From assembly GCA_027008345.1 (NCBI GenBank), contig JALTBU010000056.1:1-34888 (forward strand): a stretch of 34,888 bases of DNA, given 5' to 3'. Made by a program: the position numbers and the translations under genes. Source of the stretch: Nautiliaceae bacterium (lineage in GTDB: Bacteria > Campylobacterota > Campylobacteria > Campylobacterales > Nautiliaceae). Positions 8,286 to 22,435 of the stretch are shown piece after piece. The notes beneath the pieces were generated by a model. It was given only the letters and a program-made list of their open reading frames with translations. It did not search any database and was not told where the DNA came from. Within the stretch, counting starts at the first letter, position 1, and every line of letters begins with the position of its first letter.

Positions 8286-8843
8286 TTATTTAGATAAAGC
8301 TTCTAAAAGATTAGGATGAGCAAAGTGTGTCATAGTTCTATCATTATGACATTTTACACAACTTACATCTTCTCCTGCATTTTTTGGTTCCCAATAATAT
8401 TTTTCATGAATTTGTTTAATATTTTCACTAAGTCCCACTGCTGTTTCAGGATCTTTGATGCCTTCATGGCAGCGAAGACATGCACTGTCATATACATAAT
8501 TATCCATTTCATTGAAATTTTCTTTAAAATCAACCATTTTCATAATTCCGACATGAGCTAAGAAATCTCTTGTACCACTTATACCTTTTGCAACCAAATA
8601 TCCAATTAATGAATTATGAGGTAAGTGACAATCGGTACAGTGATGAGCCGCAAACCCCTGAGGATTGTTTCCTCCATGGACACTGTATTTAAATGTTTCA
8701 CCCATTGGTTTCATTTCATGACAGTTCATACAAAATTCAGGCTGACCAGTTTTATCAACTGCAACAGCAGCAATATATGAAATACCAAGACCTATTATAA
8801 CACCACAAATTAGTGAACCCCATAAAACTTTTTTACTTGCCAT
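8286..8843 (-). CDS. haoC: NrfH/NapC-family tetraheme c-type cytochrome (HaoC-like quinol dehydrogenase)
   Basis: Four CxxCH motifs (CMNCH, CTDCH, CLRCH, CVKCH), single N-terminal TM anchor, VDKTGQPEFCMNCHEMKP. The HaoC assignment rests on the shared promoter architecture with hao and the HaoCA pairing known in Campylobacterota. Confidence 0.85.
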   Translation of the reverse strand: MASKKVLWGSLICGVIIGLGISYIAAVAVDKTGQPEFCMNCHEMKPMGETFKYSVHGGNNPQGFAAHHCTDCHLPHNSLIGYLVAKGISGTRDFLAHVGIMKMVDFKENFNEMDNYVYDSACLRCHEGIKDPETAVGLSENIKQIHEKYYWEPKNAGEDVSCVKCHNDRTMTHFAHPNLLEALSK

Positions 8844-8869: not shown

Positions 8870-8903
8870 ATTATAAATAAATAATGTGCTTAAAGAGTGC
8901 TTT
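8870..8903 (-). promoter_or_regulatory. Predicted activator-dependent promoter of haoC: two tandem 11-bp units plus -10 TATAAT
   Basis: Minus strand: AAAGCACTCTT TAAGCACATTA (8903-8882), N6, TATAAT (8875-8870). Same layout as the hao promoter. Confidence 0.6.
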
Positions 8904-10515
8904 TTTTATTCAAATCAATAATAAATACAGCTCCTTTTTTAGAGTTGTATGCATATAACTCACCATTAAAATGTTGATTTATAATTACTTTGCTCATATA
9001 AAGGCCTATTCCGGTACCCTGAGACTGAAATTTGGTTGTAAAATAAGGCTCAAATATTTTATCTTTAATTTCATTAGGTATACCGCCTGCATTATCTTCT
9101 ATTTCTATTTTTTTTCCATTTATTCTAATCCAGATTTTTCTATTTTTTATATCTCTTTCTTTAAGAACATCAATAGCATTATTTATAATATTCAAAATTA
9201 CCTGAGAAAATTCACTTCTATATCCTAAAACTGGCTCGGTTTTTAAAAATTTAAGTTCTACATCAACCCTGTTTTGTTTAAGCCTTCCTTCGATAAGTTT
9301 AAGTGCTTCTTCTATTATTTCTTTTGGACAAAATTCAACTTTTTTTGTATCTTTTTTAAAGAAATTGGTAAAATCATCTATTGTCTGTGTCATATACTGA
9401 ATCTGAGCGTTTGCCTGTGTTTTAAATTTTTCTATAAATTCAGGAGTTAGTCTGTTTTTTTCTGCTGCAAGTTCAAAATTTTGAATTAAAAGTGAAAGCC
9501 TTGTTAAAGGATGTCTCCACTGATGGGCAATATTTCCAAGCATTTCCCCAAGAGAAGCAAGTTTGCTCTGAGCAATTAACAGCTGTTCTTTTTCCTGCCT
9601 TTTTTCAATTTCTTCTTTTACCCTTTTATCAAGCTCTTTATAAAAAGAATAAAGTGGTTTTGAGAAAAACATACCAAGTGGAACTGCTAAAAATATCGAT
9701 AAAACAAGCATTATTATTGTTAAAGTTTTGGAAATTTGATTTGTTTTATTAATAAGTCTTTTATTTTGTATAAAAATCATCTTGATATTATTAGTTAATT
9801 TTTTTACATATATTTCATCAGTAACGAATCCTTCATCAGTCTGTAATATTTTCTTATTCAAAAAGTAATTAAAGATATCATTAAGATTTTTTTCATTGTA
9901 AATATCTGATGAAAGGATATTTCCTTTATTATCAACTATTATATAATGGTAAAAATTATTATTTTCAAACAAATTTTTAATTAAAGCTTTTACTTCAATA
10001 AATCCTGGGGATTTTTCAATTTTTACCGGGGCAAAAGCTGTAAATTCAATACCGTTTGCTTTAAATTTTTCTTTGAAAAACAAATCTTTATCAGTTTTAA
10101 TATCTCCTATTTTTAAAGATTTACCATTATTATGACAATAAATATTGTTTTGATTTTTTATACAAAAAATTAAATTTTTACCATAACTGTTGAAATAATT
10201 TATCTCTTTTAAATCGCTATTTGAATAAAGCATTGTTTTAAAAACTGATTTTAAAATATCATCATTTGGTACAAAAGTAGAATTAAATATATCATTTTTA
10301 GCAAGTGCAAGAGTGGTATTTTTGATAGTATTTTCTTTTGATTTGTAATTTTTATATATGTTTTCAGCAATTATTTTTATTTTATCTTCAAATTCCTGTG
10401 TTGCAAGTTTTGTAAAAAGGTAAATTGAAGTATAAGTGGTAATTACAATAATAACAAAAGCAAAAATCACAAAAGCAAAAGTCAAATCAAATTTAAAATC
10501 ACTTGAATTTTTCAA
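8890..10515 (-). CDS. Membrane sensor histidine kinase with a large extracytoplasmic domain
   Basis: Two TM segments flanking about 220 aa, then SLGEMLGNIAHQWRHPLTRLSLL (phosphoacceptor His), N box NIINNAIDVL, G1/G2 boxes IEIEDNAGGIP and TGIGLYMSK. Predicted TTG start overlaps the response-regulator 3' end. Confidence 0.93.
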   Translation of the reverse strand: MKNSSDFKFDLTFAFVIFAFVIIVITTYTSIYLFTKLATQEFEDKIKIIAENIYKNYKSKENTIKNTTLALAKNDIFNSTFVPNDDILKSVFKTMLYSNSDLKEINYFNSYGKNLIFCIKNQNNIYCHNNGKSLKIGDIKTDKDLFFKEKFKANGIEFTAFAPVKIEKSPGFIEVKALIKNLFENNNFYHYIIVDNKGNILSSDIYNEKNLNDIFNYFLNKKILQTDEGFVTDEIYVKKLTNNIKMIFIQNKRLINKTNQISKTLTIIMLVLSIFLAVPLGMFFSKPLYSFYKELDKRVKEEIEKRQEKEQLLIAQSKLASLGEMLGNIAHQWRHPLTRLSLLIQNFELAAEKNRLTPEFIEKFKTQANAQIQYMTQTIDDFTNFFKKDTKKVEFCPKEIIEEALKLIEGRLKQNRVDVELKFLKTEPVLGYRSEFSQVILNIINNAIDVLKERDIKNRKIWIRINGKKIEIEDNAGGIPNEIKDKIFEPYFTTKFQSQGTGIGLYMSKVIINQHFNGELYAYNSKKGAVFIIDLNKKSTL

Positions 10516-11149
10516 TTTTATATCCGATTCCTCTTATGTTTTTAATAAAATTCTCATTAAGTTTACTTCTTAGTTTTTTTACTTGCGTTCTTATTGTGTT
10601 ATTACATATATCTTTACCATCCCATACATAATCCCTAAGCCTTTCAAGCTCAACAACCTGACCAATGTTTTTTACCAGCATTTCAAGAAAATATTTTTCA
10701 TTTTGAGTTAAATCAACTTCTTCATCATTATAAAAAAGTTTTAATTTATCTAAATCAAATTTATAATTTTGGGTAATTTTAATTTCATTTGTATTTTTAA
10801 AGACAAGTCTTTTTATTCTAAGTTCAAGTTCTTTTAGCTCAAAAGGCTTTTTAATATAATCAGCAGCCCCAAGTTCAAATGCCTTTTCCACATGATCAAT
10901 ATCAGAATATGCCGTAATAAAAATAACCGGTACATTTTTTGCATAATTTTTTAGCTCATTATAAAGTTCATAACCGTTCATTTCCGGCATATTAATATCA
11001 AGTAGAAATATATCGTAATGATCAGGATAAACTTCTTCCAATGCTTTAAGTGGAGATGAATAATAATCAACTCTGTTATCTTTAAGTTCAAAATAATCTT
11101 TTATCGATTCTCCGATAAATTCGTCATCTTCAACTAAAAGTATTCTCAT
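10499..11149 (-). CDS. OmpR/PhoB-family response regulator
   Basis: Receiver domain MRILLVEDDEF...DIFLLDINMPEMNGYEL...IKKPF; winged-helix C-terminus TQNEKYFLEMLVKNIGQVVELERLRDYVW...NTIRTQVKKLRSKL...IRGIGYKIEKFK. Confidence 0.95.
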   Translation of the reverse strand: MRILLVEDDEFIGESIKDYFELKDNRVDYYSSPLKALEEVYPDHYDIFLLDINMPEMNGYELYNELKNYAKNVPVIFITAYSDIDHVEKAFELGAADYIKKPFELKELELRIKRLVFKNTNEIKITQNYKFDLDKLKLFYNDEEVDLTQNEKYFLEMLVKNIGQVVELERLRDYVWDGKDICNNTIRTQVKKLRSKLNENFIKNIRGIGYKIEKFK

Positions 11150-13957: not shown

Positions 13958-13979
13958 TATAGTGCCTTAATAGTGCCTT
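13958..13979 (-). promoter_or_regulatory. Tandem 11-bp repeat (AAGGCACTATT AAGGCACTATA), putative response-regulator site in the nap/mod divergent region
   Basis: Two contiguous 11-mers differing only at the last base; same GGCACT core as the haoC and hao promoter repeats. Confidence 0.6.
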
Positions 13980-14064
13980 GAATCTTAATTATAACTTAAA
14001 ATAAAGTAATATGAATGTAAAAAGGAGTATTATAATAATGTTAAAATTCCTAAAGGAGTGAATT

Positions 14065-16884
14065 ATGTCAATGAATAGAAGAGATTTTTTAAAAACAACA
14101 GCTGCTGTTGCAGCAGCGAGCGCAGCAGGATTATCAATCCCAGAAGATGCAAAAGCAGCATCTAACGAGGCACAAGAAGGCTGGCACTGGGATAAAGCTG
14201 TATGTAGATTTTGTGGTACCGGATGCGGAATTATGATTGCTACAAAAGGAAACAAAGTTGTTGCGGTTAAAGGTGACCCTGAAAATCCAGTTAACAGAGG
14301 TATTAACTGTATTAAAGGTTATTTTAACGCGAAAATTATGTATGGTGCTGACAGACTTACACAACCACTTTTAAGACTAAACGAAAATGGTGAATTTGAT
14401 AAACATGCTCCGTTTAGACCTGTAACTTGGAAAAGGGCATTTGATGAAATGGAAAAACAATTCAAAAAATATTACAATAAATATGGACCGACAGCCGTAG
14501 GTGTATTTGGTTCAGGACAATATACAATCCAAGAAGGTTACGCAGCATTAAAACTTGTAAAAGCTGGATGGAGAAGTAACAATATAGACCCAAATGCAAG
14601 ACACTGTATGGCAAGTGCGGTTGTAGGATTTTATCAAACATTCGGTATTGATGAGCCAAGTGGATGTTATGATGACATTGAACTTACTGATACAGTAATT
14701 ACCTGGGGTGCAAATATGGCTGAAATGCATCCGATTCTATGGTCAAGAGTAAGTGATGCTAAACTAAATAATCCTGATAAATATATGGTAGTAAACCTAT
14801 CAACTTACAGAAACAGATGTTCAAATCTTGCAGATATGGAAATTATTTTTAGACCAAATACCGACCTTGCTATATGGAATTACATCGCAAGAGAAATAGT
14901 TCATAGAAATGCTGTAAATTGGGATTTTGTGAAAAAACATACAGTATTTGCTACAGGATTTCCAGACATCGGTTATGGTATGAGAAATCCAAATAACCCT
15001 CATGTAACACCAAAAGAAAAAGACACTGTTGAAAAACAAGTTGCAAAAGTGGTAACAGAAGAAGAAGCTGTTGCACTTAGCCCAATTGGCAAATGGAAAG
15101 CCGGTGATGAAATGAAAATGACTCACGCAAATGGTAAAAAACCATTCTGGCATTGGGAAATCAGCTTTGAAGATTTCAAAAAAGGAGTTGAACCTTATAC
15201 ACTTGATTATGTTGCAAAAATCGCAAAAGGTGATAAAAACGAATCTCTTGAAAGTTTCAAAAGAAAACTTAAAAAATTAGCTGACTTATACTGTGATCCA
15301 AACAGAAAAATAGTATCTTTCTGGACAATGGGATTCAACCAACACGTAAGAGGAAGCTGGGTTAATGAACAATCATATATGGTTCATTTATTACTTGGTA
15401 AACAAGCAGAACCTGGTAATGGAGCGTTTTCTCTAACTGGTCAACCAAGTGCTTGTGGTACAGCAAGAGAAGTTGGAACATTTGCTCACAGACTCCCAGC
15501 AGACTTATTAGTAGCAAATCCTAAACACAGAAAAATTGCTGAAAAACTTTGGAAAGTACCACATGGAACAATCAATCCAAAAGTTGGATATCATTTCTTA
15601 AAAATGATGAGAGAAATTGAAGACGGAAATGTAAAATGGGTATGGGTTCAAGTAAATAACCCATGGCAAAATACAGCAAATGCAAATCACTGGCTAAAAG
15701 CTGCAAGAGAAATGGATAACTTTATAGTTGTTAGTGAATGTTATCCAGGTGTATCTGCAAGAGTAGCTGATCTTATTTTACCAATAGGTATGATTTATGA
15801 AAAATGGGGTGCATATGGAAATGCTGAGAGAAGAACACAACATTGGAGACAACAAGTTGTAGCTCCTGGTATTGCAATGCCTGACCTTTGGACAATTGCA
15901 GAATTTGCAAAAAGATTTAAATTAAAAGAAGTATGGCATGAATGGAAACTTCCGAATGGAACAGTTCTACCTGATGTATTAGAAGAAGCAAAAGCAATGG
16001 GATATAGCCCAGATGATACACTCTTTGATGTTCTATTTAACAGACCTGAATATAGAAAAAATTTCCCATGGCCAGATCCAATTGCAAAAGATGCAGGCGG
16101 CAGAATGCATCCAAATACTGAAGCTGAGGGTGATTTCAGAAATGTTGTAGGAAGCGATGGAAAAGTATTTAAAGGATACGGATTCTTTATCCAAAAAGCT
16201 TTATGGGAAGAATATAGAAAATTCGGTATTGGTCACGGACATGACTTAGCTGATTTTGATACATATCAAAAAGTTAGAGGTCTAAGATGGCCAGTTGTAA
16301 ACGGACATGAAACAAAATGGAGATTTAATGTTGATTATGACCCATATGCAAGAAAATATGCTAAACCTGGTGAAAAATTCGCATTTTATGGACCGCTTCT
16401 TAAAGCACTTAAAAAAGGTGATTTAAAAGGTCCTAAAACTCATAAAAAATATCCTTTGCCAAATAAAGCAAAAATTTTCTGGAGACCATTTATGGTGCAT
16501 CCTGAAGATCCTAAATATGACAACAAAGGTTACAATTTCTGGCTATGTACAGGAAGAGTTCTTGAACACTGGCATACAGGTACAATGACAATGAGGGTTC
16601 CAGAATTATATAGAGCAATGCCAGAAGCACTTTGTTATATGAATCCAGAAGATGCAAAAGAACTTGGACTTAACAGATTTGATTTAGTTGTAATCGAATC
16701 AAGAAGAGGAAAAGTTAAAGCAAGAATTGAAACAAGAGGAAGAAATAAACCTCCAAGAGGACTTGTAATGGTTCCATGGTTTGATGAAAAAATCTTAATT
16801 AATAAATGTACACTTGATGCAACTTGTCCATTAAGTAAAGAGACTGATTATAAAAAAGCAGCAGTTAAAATTTATAAAGCCTAA
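14065..16884 (+). CDS. napA: Periplasmic nitrate reductase catalytic subunit (molybdoprotein)
   Basis: Tat signal [22 protein letters not shown]; 4Fe-4S motif [41 protein letters not shown]; 939 aa; followed by napGHBFLD. Confidence 0.97.
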
Positions 16885-20832: not shown

Positions 20833-20866
20833 TTGGCACTTTTGAGACACTGAAATTATATAGAAT
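20833..20866 (+). promoter_or_regulatory. Predicted activator-dependent promoter of hao: two tandem 11-bp units plus -10 TAGAAT
   Basis: TTGGCACTTTT GAGACACTGAA (20833-20854), N6, TAGAAT (20861-20866); aligns base for base in layout with the haoC promoter. Confidence 0.6.
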
Positions 20867-20896
20867 TTTAAAGAGATAGTCTCAAAAGGAGTGAAA

Positions 20897-22435
20897 ATGA
20901 AAAAAGCACTAACAGCAGGGCTAAGCGTTGCAGCACTTACAACTGTTGCATTTGCAGCAAACAGCTTAGACTCAAACCCAAATTACAAAAAACTTAAAAA
21001 CTTTCACCCAAAAGGTGTAAGTAACGACCAATGTTTAATGTGTCACAAAACTATGGATCCTGGAATTGTTGCAGATTGGCAACATTCTAAACATGCAAAA
21101 GCTGGTGTAGGTTGTGTTGAATGTCACGTTGTGCCAAAAGACTATCCGACTGCATTCAAAAACCATCCAATGCAAGGTGCTAACTGGACTGTTCAAATTG
21201 CAGTATCTTCTGTAACTTGTGCAAAATGTCACGCAAAAGAAGTTACTGAATATCTAAATTCAGGGCACGCAAGAGGTGGTGCTCAATGGCTTGCAGTAAA
21301 TGGTAGCAAACATGGATATTTAATGAGCAAACTTTCTTATTATTATGAAAGTTTAAAAGGTAAAAATCCATCTTTAAATGGTGTACCTGGTGCTAAAATG
21401 GCAAAAGGCATTAGAAAAGACGGTTCTGTATATTATGCAAATCAAAATAATCCAAAAATTGCTGATTTAAATGTAGCTAATATCTGTATCCAATGTCATG
21501 GTACTACTGTTAAACTTGATAAAAACGGTGTTCCTGATCCAAGAACATGGCCAAGTGATGGTATTGCTTCACTTTATCCAGATGGTGGTGTTGGAAATTG
21601 TTTAGCATGTCACAGCAGACATAAATTCAGCGCAGCTGAAGCAAGAAATCCAGCAAGCTGTGGAAACTGTCACTTAGGACCTGACCATCCAATGAAAGAA
21701 ATTTTCGAATCAAGTGTTCATGGTCATATCTATGATACAAATGAAAAAGATTATAACTTTGAAACAGGTGCACAAATCCCTGGAAAAACTCTAAGAGCAG
21801 CTACATGTTTTACATGTCATATGGCAGCAATTAATGGTCTTAAAGCTACTCACAACGTATCACTAAGACTTAAATGGAACCTATGGGCACCAGATAGTTT
21901 CTTAAGAACAGGCGGACATGAAACAGCTGGATGGGCTTTCTGGAAAGGTGGAGGAAAAATAATCGGCGGAAAAACTGTAATTAGAGGTAACGCTAAAGCT
22001 GGTAATCCAAATGGACCAGAAGCTGCAAGAGCAGATATGAAAAAAGTTTGTATGACTTGTCACCAAGCAACATTTACAAACAACTATTTCCAAAGAGTAG
22101 ATGCAGCAGTAACAATCTACAATCAATATAAAGCATTTGCAAACAAAATGATGAAAGATCTTAAATCTAAAGGTCTAATCAAAGCTGATGTGTGGAGCGA
22201 TCCATTCTTTAAATTATATTACTATCTATGGCATCATGAAGGAAGAAGATTCAGACATGGTGCAGCTATGGGAAGCCCGGATTATGCTCACTGGCATGGT
22301 GTTTTCCAAGTTATGCAAGATATCAGAGAAATGAACGATATCTATAACTACAGAATGAAAATGTACAAAAAATATGGAAACGCTAAAAAAGTTCTTGAAA
22401 ACGAACCACCAATGCCAGTTGTTACTCACGAATAA
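20897..22435 (+). CDS. hao: Octaheme hydroxylamine oxidoreductase-family cytochrome (epsilon-type Hao)
   Basis: Eight CxxCH motifs (CLMCH, CVECH, CAKCH, CIQCH, CLACH, CGNCH, CFTCH, CMTCH), signal peptide, C-terminal HGAAMGSPDYAHWHGVFQ. Start corrected from the track's GTG at 20891 to ATG 20897, because SD AAGGAG occupies 20886-20891. Confidence 0.93.
   Translation: MKKALTAGLSVAALTTVAFAANSLDSNPNYKKLKNFHPKGVSNDQCLMCHKTMDPGIVADWQHSKHAKAGVGCVECHVVPKDYPTAFKNHPMQGANWTVQIAVSSVTCAKCHAKEVTEYLNSGHARGGAQWLAVNGSKHGYLMSKLSYYYESLKGKNPSLNGVPGAKMAKGIRKDGSVYYANQNNPKIADLNVANICIQCHGTTVKLDKNGVPDPRTWPSDGIASLYPDGGVGNCLACHSRHKFSAAEARNPASCGNCHLGPDHPMKEIFESSVHGHIYDTNEKDYNFETGAQIPGKTLRAATCFTCHMAAINGLKATHNVSLRLKWNLWAPDSFLRTGGHETAGWAFWKGGGKIIGGKTVIRGNAKAGNPNGPEAARADMKKVCMTCHQATFTNNYFQRVDAAVTIYNQYKAFANKMMKDLKSKGLIKADVWSDPFFKLYYYLWHHEGRRFRHGAAMGSPDYAHWHGVFQVMQDIREMNDIYNYRMKMYKKYGNAKKVLENEPPMPVVTHE

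Follow-up and report, generated by a model that had tools for sequence, protein, structure and literature searches.

How vent Nautiliaceae control reverse-HURM, the conversion of nitrate to ammonium via hydroxylamine, is a question raised by two promoters in the DNA analysed here, a window of 34,888 nucleotides from a Nautiliaceae bacterium (GenBank assembly GCA_027008345.1, contig JALTBU010000056.1); the literature that we searched assigns no regulator to this pathway. The first promoter precedes hao, the gene for an octahaem cytochrome (20897-22435, + strand; Pfam Multi-haem_cyto, 2.4e-20), which begins at ATG 20897 after AAAAGGAG; the listed open reading frame starts upstream of this codon, at GTG 20891. 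Two tandem 11-bp units, TTGGCACTTTT (20833-20843, +) and GAGACACTGAA (20844-20854, +), are followed here by the -10 hexamer TAGAAT (20861-20866, +), 10 nt past the second RCAC. The second promoter precedes haoC (cycB; 8286-8843, - strand), the gene for a tetrahaem cytochrome of the NapC/NrfH type (Pfam Cytochrom_NNT, 3.9e-23), and consists of the units AAAGCACTCTT (8903-8893, -) and TAAGCACATTA (8892-8882, -) and the -10 hexamer TATAAT (8870-8875, -). The first-pass annotation had presented both as pho-box-like with a 6-bp gap between the units and the -10, and the promoter sequences it gave agree with the window letter for letter. The borders drawn around the 11-mers are arbitrary, and what is constant is the 11-bp period together with the 10-nt distance that separates TANAAT from the second RCAC. 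The hao leader (20867-20890) also contains GAGA-N3-TCTC (GAGT..ACTC in genus g3), a weak element that may form a small hairpin at the 5' end and is missing from some genomes.

The box is a real feature of these promoters, as its layout is kept in every Nautiliaceae relative checked. For footprinting, hao, haoC, napA and the regulator gene described below were gathered from 21 genomes in five genera of the family. RCAC-N7-RCAC-N10-TANAAT is present at all 19 hao and all 20 haoC promoters, the haoC hexamer being TATAAT at exactly 10 nt in each of the 20, and the gap from the second RCAC is exactly 10 nt in 39/39. The consensus is GGCACTTTTGAGACACTT for hao and AAAGCACTTTTTAAGCAC for haoC, and the information content is 1.98 and 1.90 bits in the box columns, respectively, compared with 0.57 and 0.54 bits in the upstream flank. 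In two genomes (G017 and G018) hao lies at approximately 1.18-1.24 Mb and haoC at approximately 0.5 Mb, some 690 kb apart, with the box at both genes, and the motif is therefore not a by-product of local synteny. Nor does coding constraint explain it. The final codons of the upstream kinase gene (stop 8892-8890) do run into the first haoC unit, but G017, G018, G001 and G020 retain the motif although the upstream sequence around it does not encode the kinase there. In G002 a second, split copy of hao (C1:62510-65357) lies downstream of the intact gene, with GCACTCTAGAAGCAC upstream.

Specificity resides in the full layout rather than in its core. The window has three copies of RCAC-N7-RCAC where 0.70 would be expected; all lie in promoter regions of nitrogen metabolism, namely those of hao and haoC and the nap/mod intergenic region. 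Across the whole 1.5-Mb source genome, however, there are 26 matches versus 29 for a reversed control, so the bare core alone means little and was rejected as a genome-wide signal. The full layout has 38 exact matches in the 21 whole genomes, comprising 18 at hao, 18 at haoC, one at nap (G020) and one at a small gene (G016), whereas its reversed pattern has none in the same genomes. In the source genome and in G017 it occurs at hao and haoC only; it was absent from 248 kb of sequence around the loci, and dinucleotide shuffles of the upstream regions produced it in 0 of 5,700 and 0 of 6,000 trials. The first-pass annotation had staked its case on the motif being rarer in control sequence than at these promoters, which stands for the full layout, absent from shuffles and located at hao or haoC in 36 of 38 exact matches, and fails for the bare core, which does not exceed its genome-wide control.

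A looser scan for the box alone returned 131 matches versus 34 in controls. Relaxed matches also occur at other genes. At two loci (L133 and L134, in G008 and G013) a gene for a molybdopterin oxidoreductase with a TAT signal has the box GGCACTTTTTAAGCAC 60 bp upstream, with an inverted AGTGCC ahead of the box; the box is absent at the same gene in G010 and from the short upstream stretch available in G012. In both genomes of genus g3, G016 and G015 (L144 and L146), a box precedes a small gene that by eye resembles YbjQ/DUF74, and a relaxed match is found at a hemerythrin gene in G003. These three genes are possible additional regulon members, too narrowly distributed to claim. A single box-like match at L156 falls inside a coding frame and was discounted.

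The third site in the window, overlooked by the first-pass annotation, lies in the nap/mod intergenic region, where the box GGCACTATTAAGGCAC (about 13962-13977, - strand) is inverted relative to napA (14065-16884, +; Pfam Molybdopterin), the gene for periplasmic nitrate reductase and the first of a nap cluster that runs to 20810 and encodes NapB and NapD downstream of napA. The inverted box is found upstream of napA in 18 of 18 genomes from four genera, with both cores exact in 16 and TCAC as the second core (one mismatch) in two. The conserved element GTATTATAATAATG (14027-14040, +), the presumed -10 of the nap promoter, stands 50 nt past the box, and across the 18 genomes the box and the conserved [AGT]TATNAT are always separated by 49 or 50 nt. 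The distance to the napA start, in contrast, varies from 84 to 98 nt in these genomes, and that to the regulator gene in the opposite direction from 31 to more than 2,600 nt. Because its spacing is fixed relative to TATNAT and variable relative to the genes, the box is phased to the nap promoter rather than to the divergent gene. Relative to hao and haoC the spacing increases from 10 to about 51 nt, and the difference of 41 nt, approximately four helical turns, would leave the box on about the same side of the DNA. In G020 (genus g5) the nap box is in the forward orientation with the hao-like N10-TATAAT layout exact. The intergenic region that holds the inverted box also accommodates a Moco riboswitch in the modA leader (13886-13769, -; Rfam RF01055, 71.9 bits), which has its own TTGACT / TACAAT promoter. 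The napA gene of G016 (C1:334081-336871) reads in three pieces, reflecting a frameshift or a sequencing error.

A candidate for the binding protein is encoded close by. The response regulator at 10499-11149 (- strand) combines a receiver domain (Pfam Response_reg, 8.4e-29) with a C-terminal winged helix (Trans_reg_C, 1.7e-15) and so belongs to the OmpR/PhoB type, with NNTIRTQVKKLR as its recognition helix by alignment. Operators of this type are tandem direct repeats with a period of 10-11 bp, and the period is 11 in 39 of 39 hao and haoC promoters. The regulator gene adjoins haoC and/or nap in nearly all Nautiliaceae genomes; in G006, a genome that is 70% complete, haoC has its box and no orthologue of the regulator was found. 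The sensor histidine kinase (8890-10515, -; Pfam HATPase_c, 3.7e-17) has a periplasmic dCACHE domain. Whole-kinase fold searching retrieved mostly matches to the catalytic domain; the AF2 model of the sensor part folded alone (pLDDT 85) has a double CACHE fold, for which the best solved match is the extracellular domain of vpHK1S-Z8 (E 5.5e-10, TM 0.68), followed by H. pylori TlpA/TlpC. Two cysteines at about residues 118 and 127 of the kinase are invariant in the family and map to a predicted beta-hairpin of the sensor, where they may form a disulfide or a redox switch. On this sequence evidence the regulator is probably the protein that binds the box at hao, haoC and nap. We further judge it likely that the tandem 11-bp element is the operator through which this regulator, with the kinase as its partner, jointly induces nap, hao and haoC. 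The earlier proposal of a pho-box-like operator for an OmpR-type protein is thus favored by the footprint across the family, by the specificity in whole genomes and by the regulator gene nearby. A full-text search found no earlier description of the box or the regulator, most subscription journals being beyond its reach.

Comparison with characterized systems indicates which aspects of this arrangement are familiar. At pstS the pho box takes the place of the -35, with 10 nt between it and the -10, and all 39 hao and haoC promoters have the same PhoB-like class II layout relative to their predicted -10. The pho box is composed of two head-to-tail 11-nt direct repeats, and PhoB contacts sigma-70 (PMC4415409). 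The geometry of the E. coli pho box equals that of the hao/haoC box, and the pstS box CTGTCATAAAACTGTCAT (PMC3465305) overlays TTGGCACTTTTGAGACAC with matches to T, G, C and A in the first unit. Nevertheless, the regulator is not PhoB: it scores far below the cut-offs of the NCBIfam PhoB equivalog models (118/270 and 96/296 bits), its neighbours are nitrate genes and not pst/pho, the Nautiliaceae consensus is GCACTTTT and not CTGTCAT, and GGCACTTTTNNRRCAC occurs at hao, haoC and nap in place of CTGTCAT-N4-CTGTCAT beside pst/pho. TorR, PhoP and KdpE are also OmpR-family regulators with direct-repeat operators; they share the protein family and the direct-repeat principle with this regulator and differ in sequences, spacings and regulons. 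The lack of a good -35 had been read as a sign of activator dependence, but sigma-70 promoters of Campylobacterota normally have no -35 box, which makes the feature uninformative there and the argument weaker. In the C. jejuni RacR study, weight is placed on the region upstream of -16 (PMC4456614). RacR, of the RacR/RacS pair, is likewise OmpR-type, comes from the same phylum and works at low oxygen in the presence of nitrate or TMAO (PMC4456614); its known targets, however, are aspA, gltBD and ggt, with the ggt site approximately 80 bp upstream of the start. The regulator described here is probably not the widespread RacR, given its rarity in the class, with orthologues at E < 1e-52 in 12 of 249 genomes, eight of which are Nautiliaceae.

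Orthologues outside the family show the box at a different gene. In all four such loci with a cytochrome visible (L154, L155, L196 and L153/L287), the box precedes the cytochrome gene, whose product has 731-796 residues and 11-12 CXXCH motifs and is neither Hao nor Nap; an MccA-type sulfite reductase was rejected as the target, given the 11-12 CXXCH and no CX15CH. In G229 there are two perfect boxes, one facing the cytochrome and one with N10-TATAAT facing the regulator; the cytochrome-side box of G189 has one mismatch; in G073, where the cytochrome gene is read at its start only, a box with one mismatch is followed by N10 and TATGAT; and in a Campylobacteraceae MAG the box lies before a multihaem cytochrome gene beside the regulator orthologue. 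One locus with a regulator 68% identical (L195) has no box on its short contig. Hao outside Nautiliaceae is mostly Campylobacter-like (about 51-55% identity), and none of its loci (L157-L178) has a box, so possession of hao alone does not bring the box with it. The recognition helix C[DN]NT[IL]RTxxKK[LI]R is common to the Nautiliaceae regulators and the box-bearing orthologues outside the family. In a separate collection of 79 related regulator loci, a GGCAC box outside coding frames was present at 4 of 6 loci with the NT[IL]RT helix and 0 of 73 others (Fisher p = 1e-5), a test that partly repeats the footprint since at least four of the six are Nautiliaceae MAGs.

These correlations bear on whether the box, as a real operator, could be bound by another factor, either a paralogous OmpR-type protein or a nitrogen-oxide regulator of the Crp/Fnr type, for example NssR of Wolinella. 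Each genome has some ten to twenty response-regulator-like matches, and nitrate control in Wolinella and C. jejuni is exerted by a Crp/Fnr-type regulator. However, direct repeats with an 11-bp period suit dimers of the OmpR/PhoB type, Crp/Fnr proteins instead recognizing inverted repeats; the box type segregates with the helix of the 10499-11149 regulator type and not with paralogous response regulators; and the box adjoins orthologues of this regulator even where hao and nap are missing from the neighbourhood. We regard a different binder as unlikely for these reasons.

Expression data for N. profundicola are consistent with co-regulation of hao and haoC, as the first-pass annotation had predicted. 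By RT-qPCR, napA, haoA and cycB (haoC) were up 4.6-, 8.5- and 7.1-fold in nitrate- versus ammonium-grown cells, and addition of ammonium caused a significant drop in haoA and cycB only, with napA the least lowered (PMC3701875). The separation of haoA and cycB from napA is the grouping predicted by the two promoter layouts, although it does not fix the identity of the regulator. Expression of amtB and har also rose on nitrate (PMC3701875), and since the N. profundicola genome has no full-layout box elsewhere, at least one other regulator acts. Under the proposed mechanism the dCACHE kinase would sense a periplasmic signal, which could be nitrate, a nitrate-derived nitrogen oxide or a matching redox state; naming nitrate or its product is a guess from the regulon. 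The phosphorylated regulator would bind the two units head-to-tail, and at hao and haoC it would occupy the place of the -35, 10 nt from the -10, and recruit sigma-70 RNA polymerase in the manner of a PhoB-like class II activator. For nap, this dimer would bind the inverted box, which lies some four helical turns farther upstream, and nitrate reductase, Hao and HaoC, the quinol-oxidising partner of Hao, would be induced together.

The same binding could instead repress, with nitrate bringing relief, which we find more doubtful still than a different binder. A site over the -35 region can exclude polymerase, and RacR of C. jejuni acts as a repressor as well as an activator (PMC4456614). However, a 10-nt spacing that is that of the pho box and invariant in 39 promoters suggests contact with polymerase over simple blocking, and an inverted nap box approximately 50 nt upstream of the -10 is a poor position for a repressor. 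A sigma-54 promoter (-24 TTGGCAC, -12 TTGC) has a negligible chance of being correct, as TTGGCAC at hao equals the -24 consensus but the obligatory GG-N10-GC is found in 0 of 19 hao promoters, excluding it there, and in 2 of 20 haoC promoters, on which count it was rejected, while a perfect sigma-70 -10 stands at a fixed distance and the regulator is OmpR-type and not an AAA+ activator.

As the site of an activating OmpR-type regulator the box would be ordinary in kind, one more operator of that family. Its value lies in offering a candidate regulator, and thus a candidate switch, for nitrate ammonification, together with a precise operator, a core regulon of nap, hao and haoC, and a correlation between recognition helix and bases. 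That correlation extends to a sister system in Sulfurovum, Sulfurimonas, Sulfuricurvum and Hydrogenimonas, where the genes of many regulators whose helix reads N[IV]RVQ..N are followed by a kinase gene and then soxX (SoxX being assigned by eye from sequence and not by family search), and upstream of soxX lies an 11-bp tandem TTTACAC-N4-TTTACAC (often TTTACAT), 8-9 nt from a -10-like hexamer. A changed helix accompanies a changed box, GGCAC for hao-type and TTACAC for sox-type regulators. Whether this reflects a class-wide Campylobacterota subfamily of kinase and OmpR-type regulator beside periplasmic c-type cytochrome systems, in which operator and helix changed together and a single ancestral tandem box of 11-bp period came to serve three different respirations, we judge to be evenly balanced. 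If so, the three systems would be Hao/Nap in Nautiliaceae, the 11-12-haem cytochrome in Campylobacter-like organisms and SoxX in Sulfurimonas, Sulfurovum and Sulfuricurvum, with GGCAC paired to NT[IL]RT..KK and TTACAC to N[IV]RVQ..N. Loci with the sox-type box include L200, L206, L209, L218, L223, L243 and L245, from Sulfurovum, Sulfurimonas, Sulfuricurvum and relatives, and at L206 such a box also lies before a divergent DsrE-like gene.
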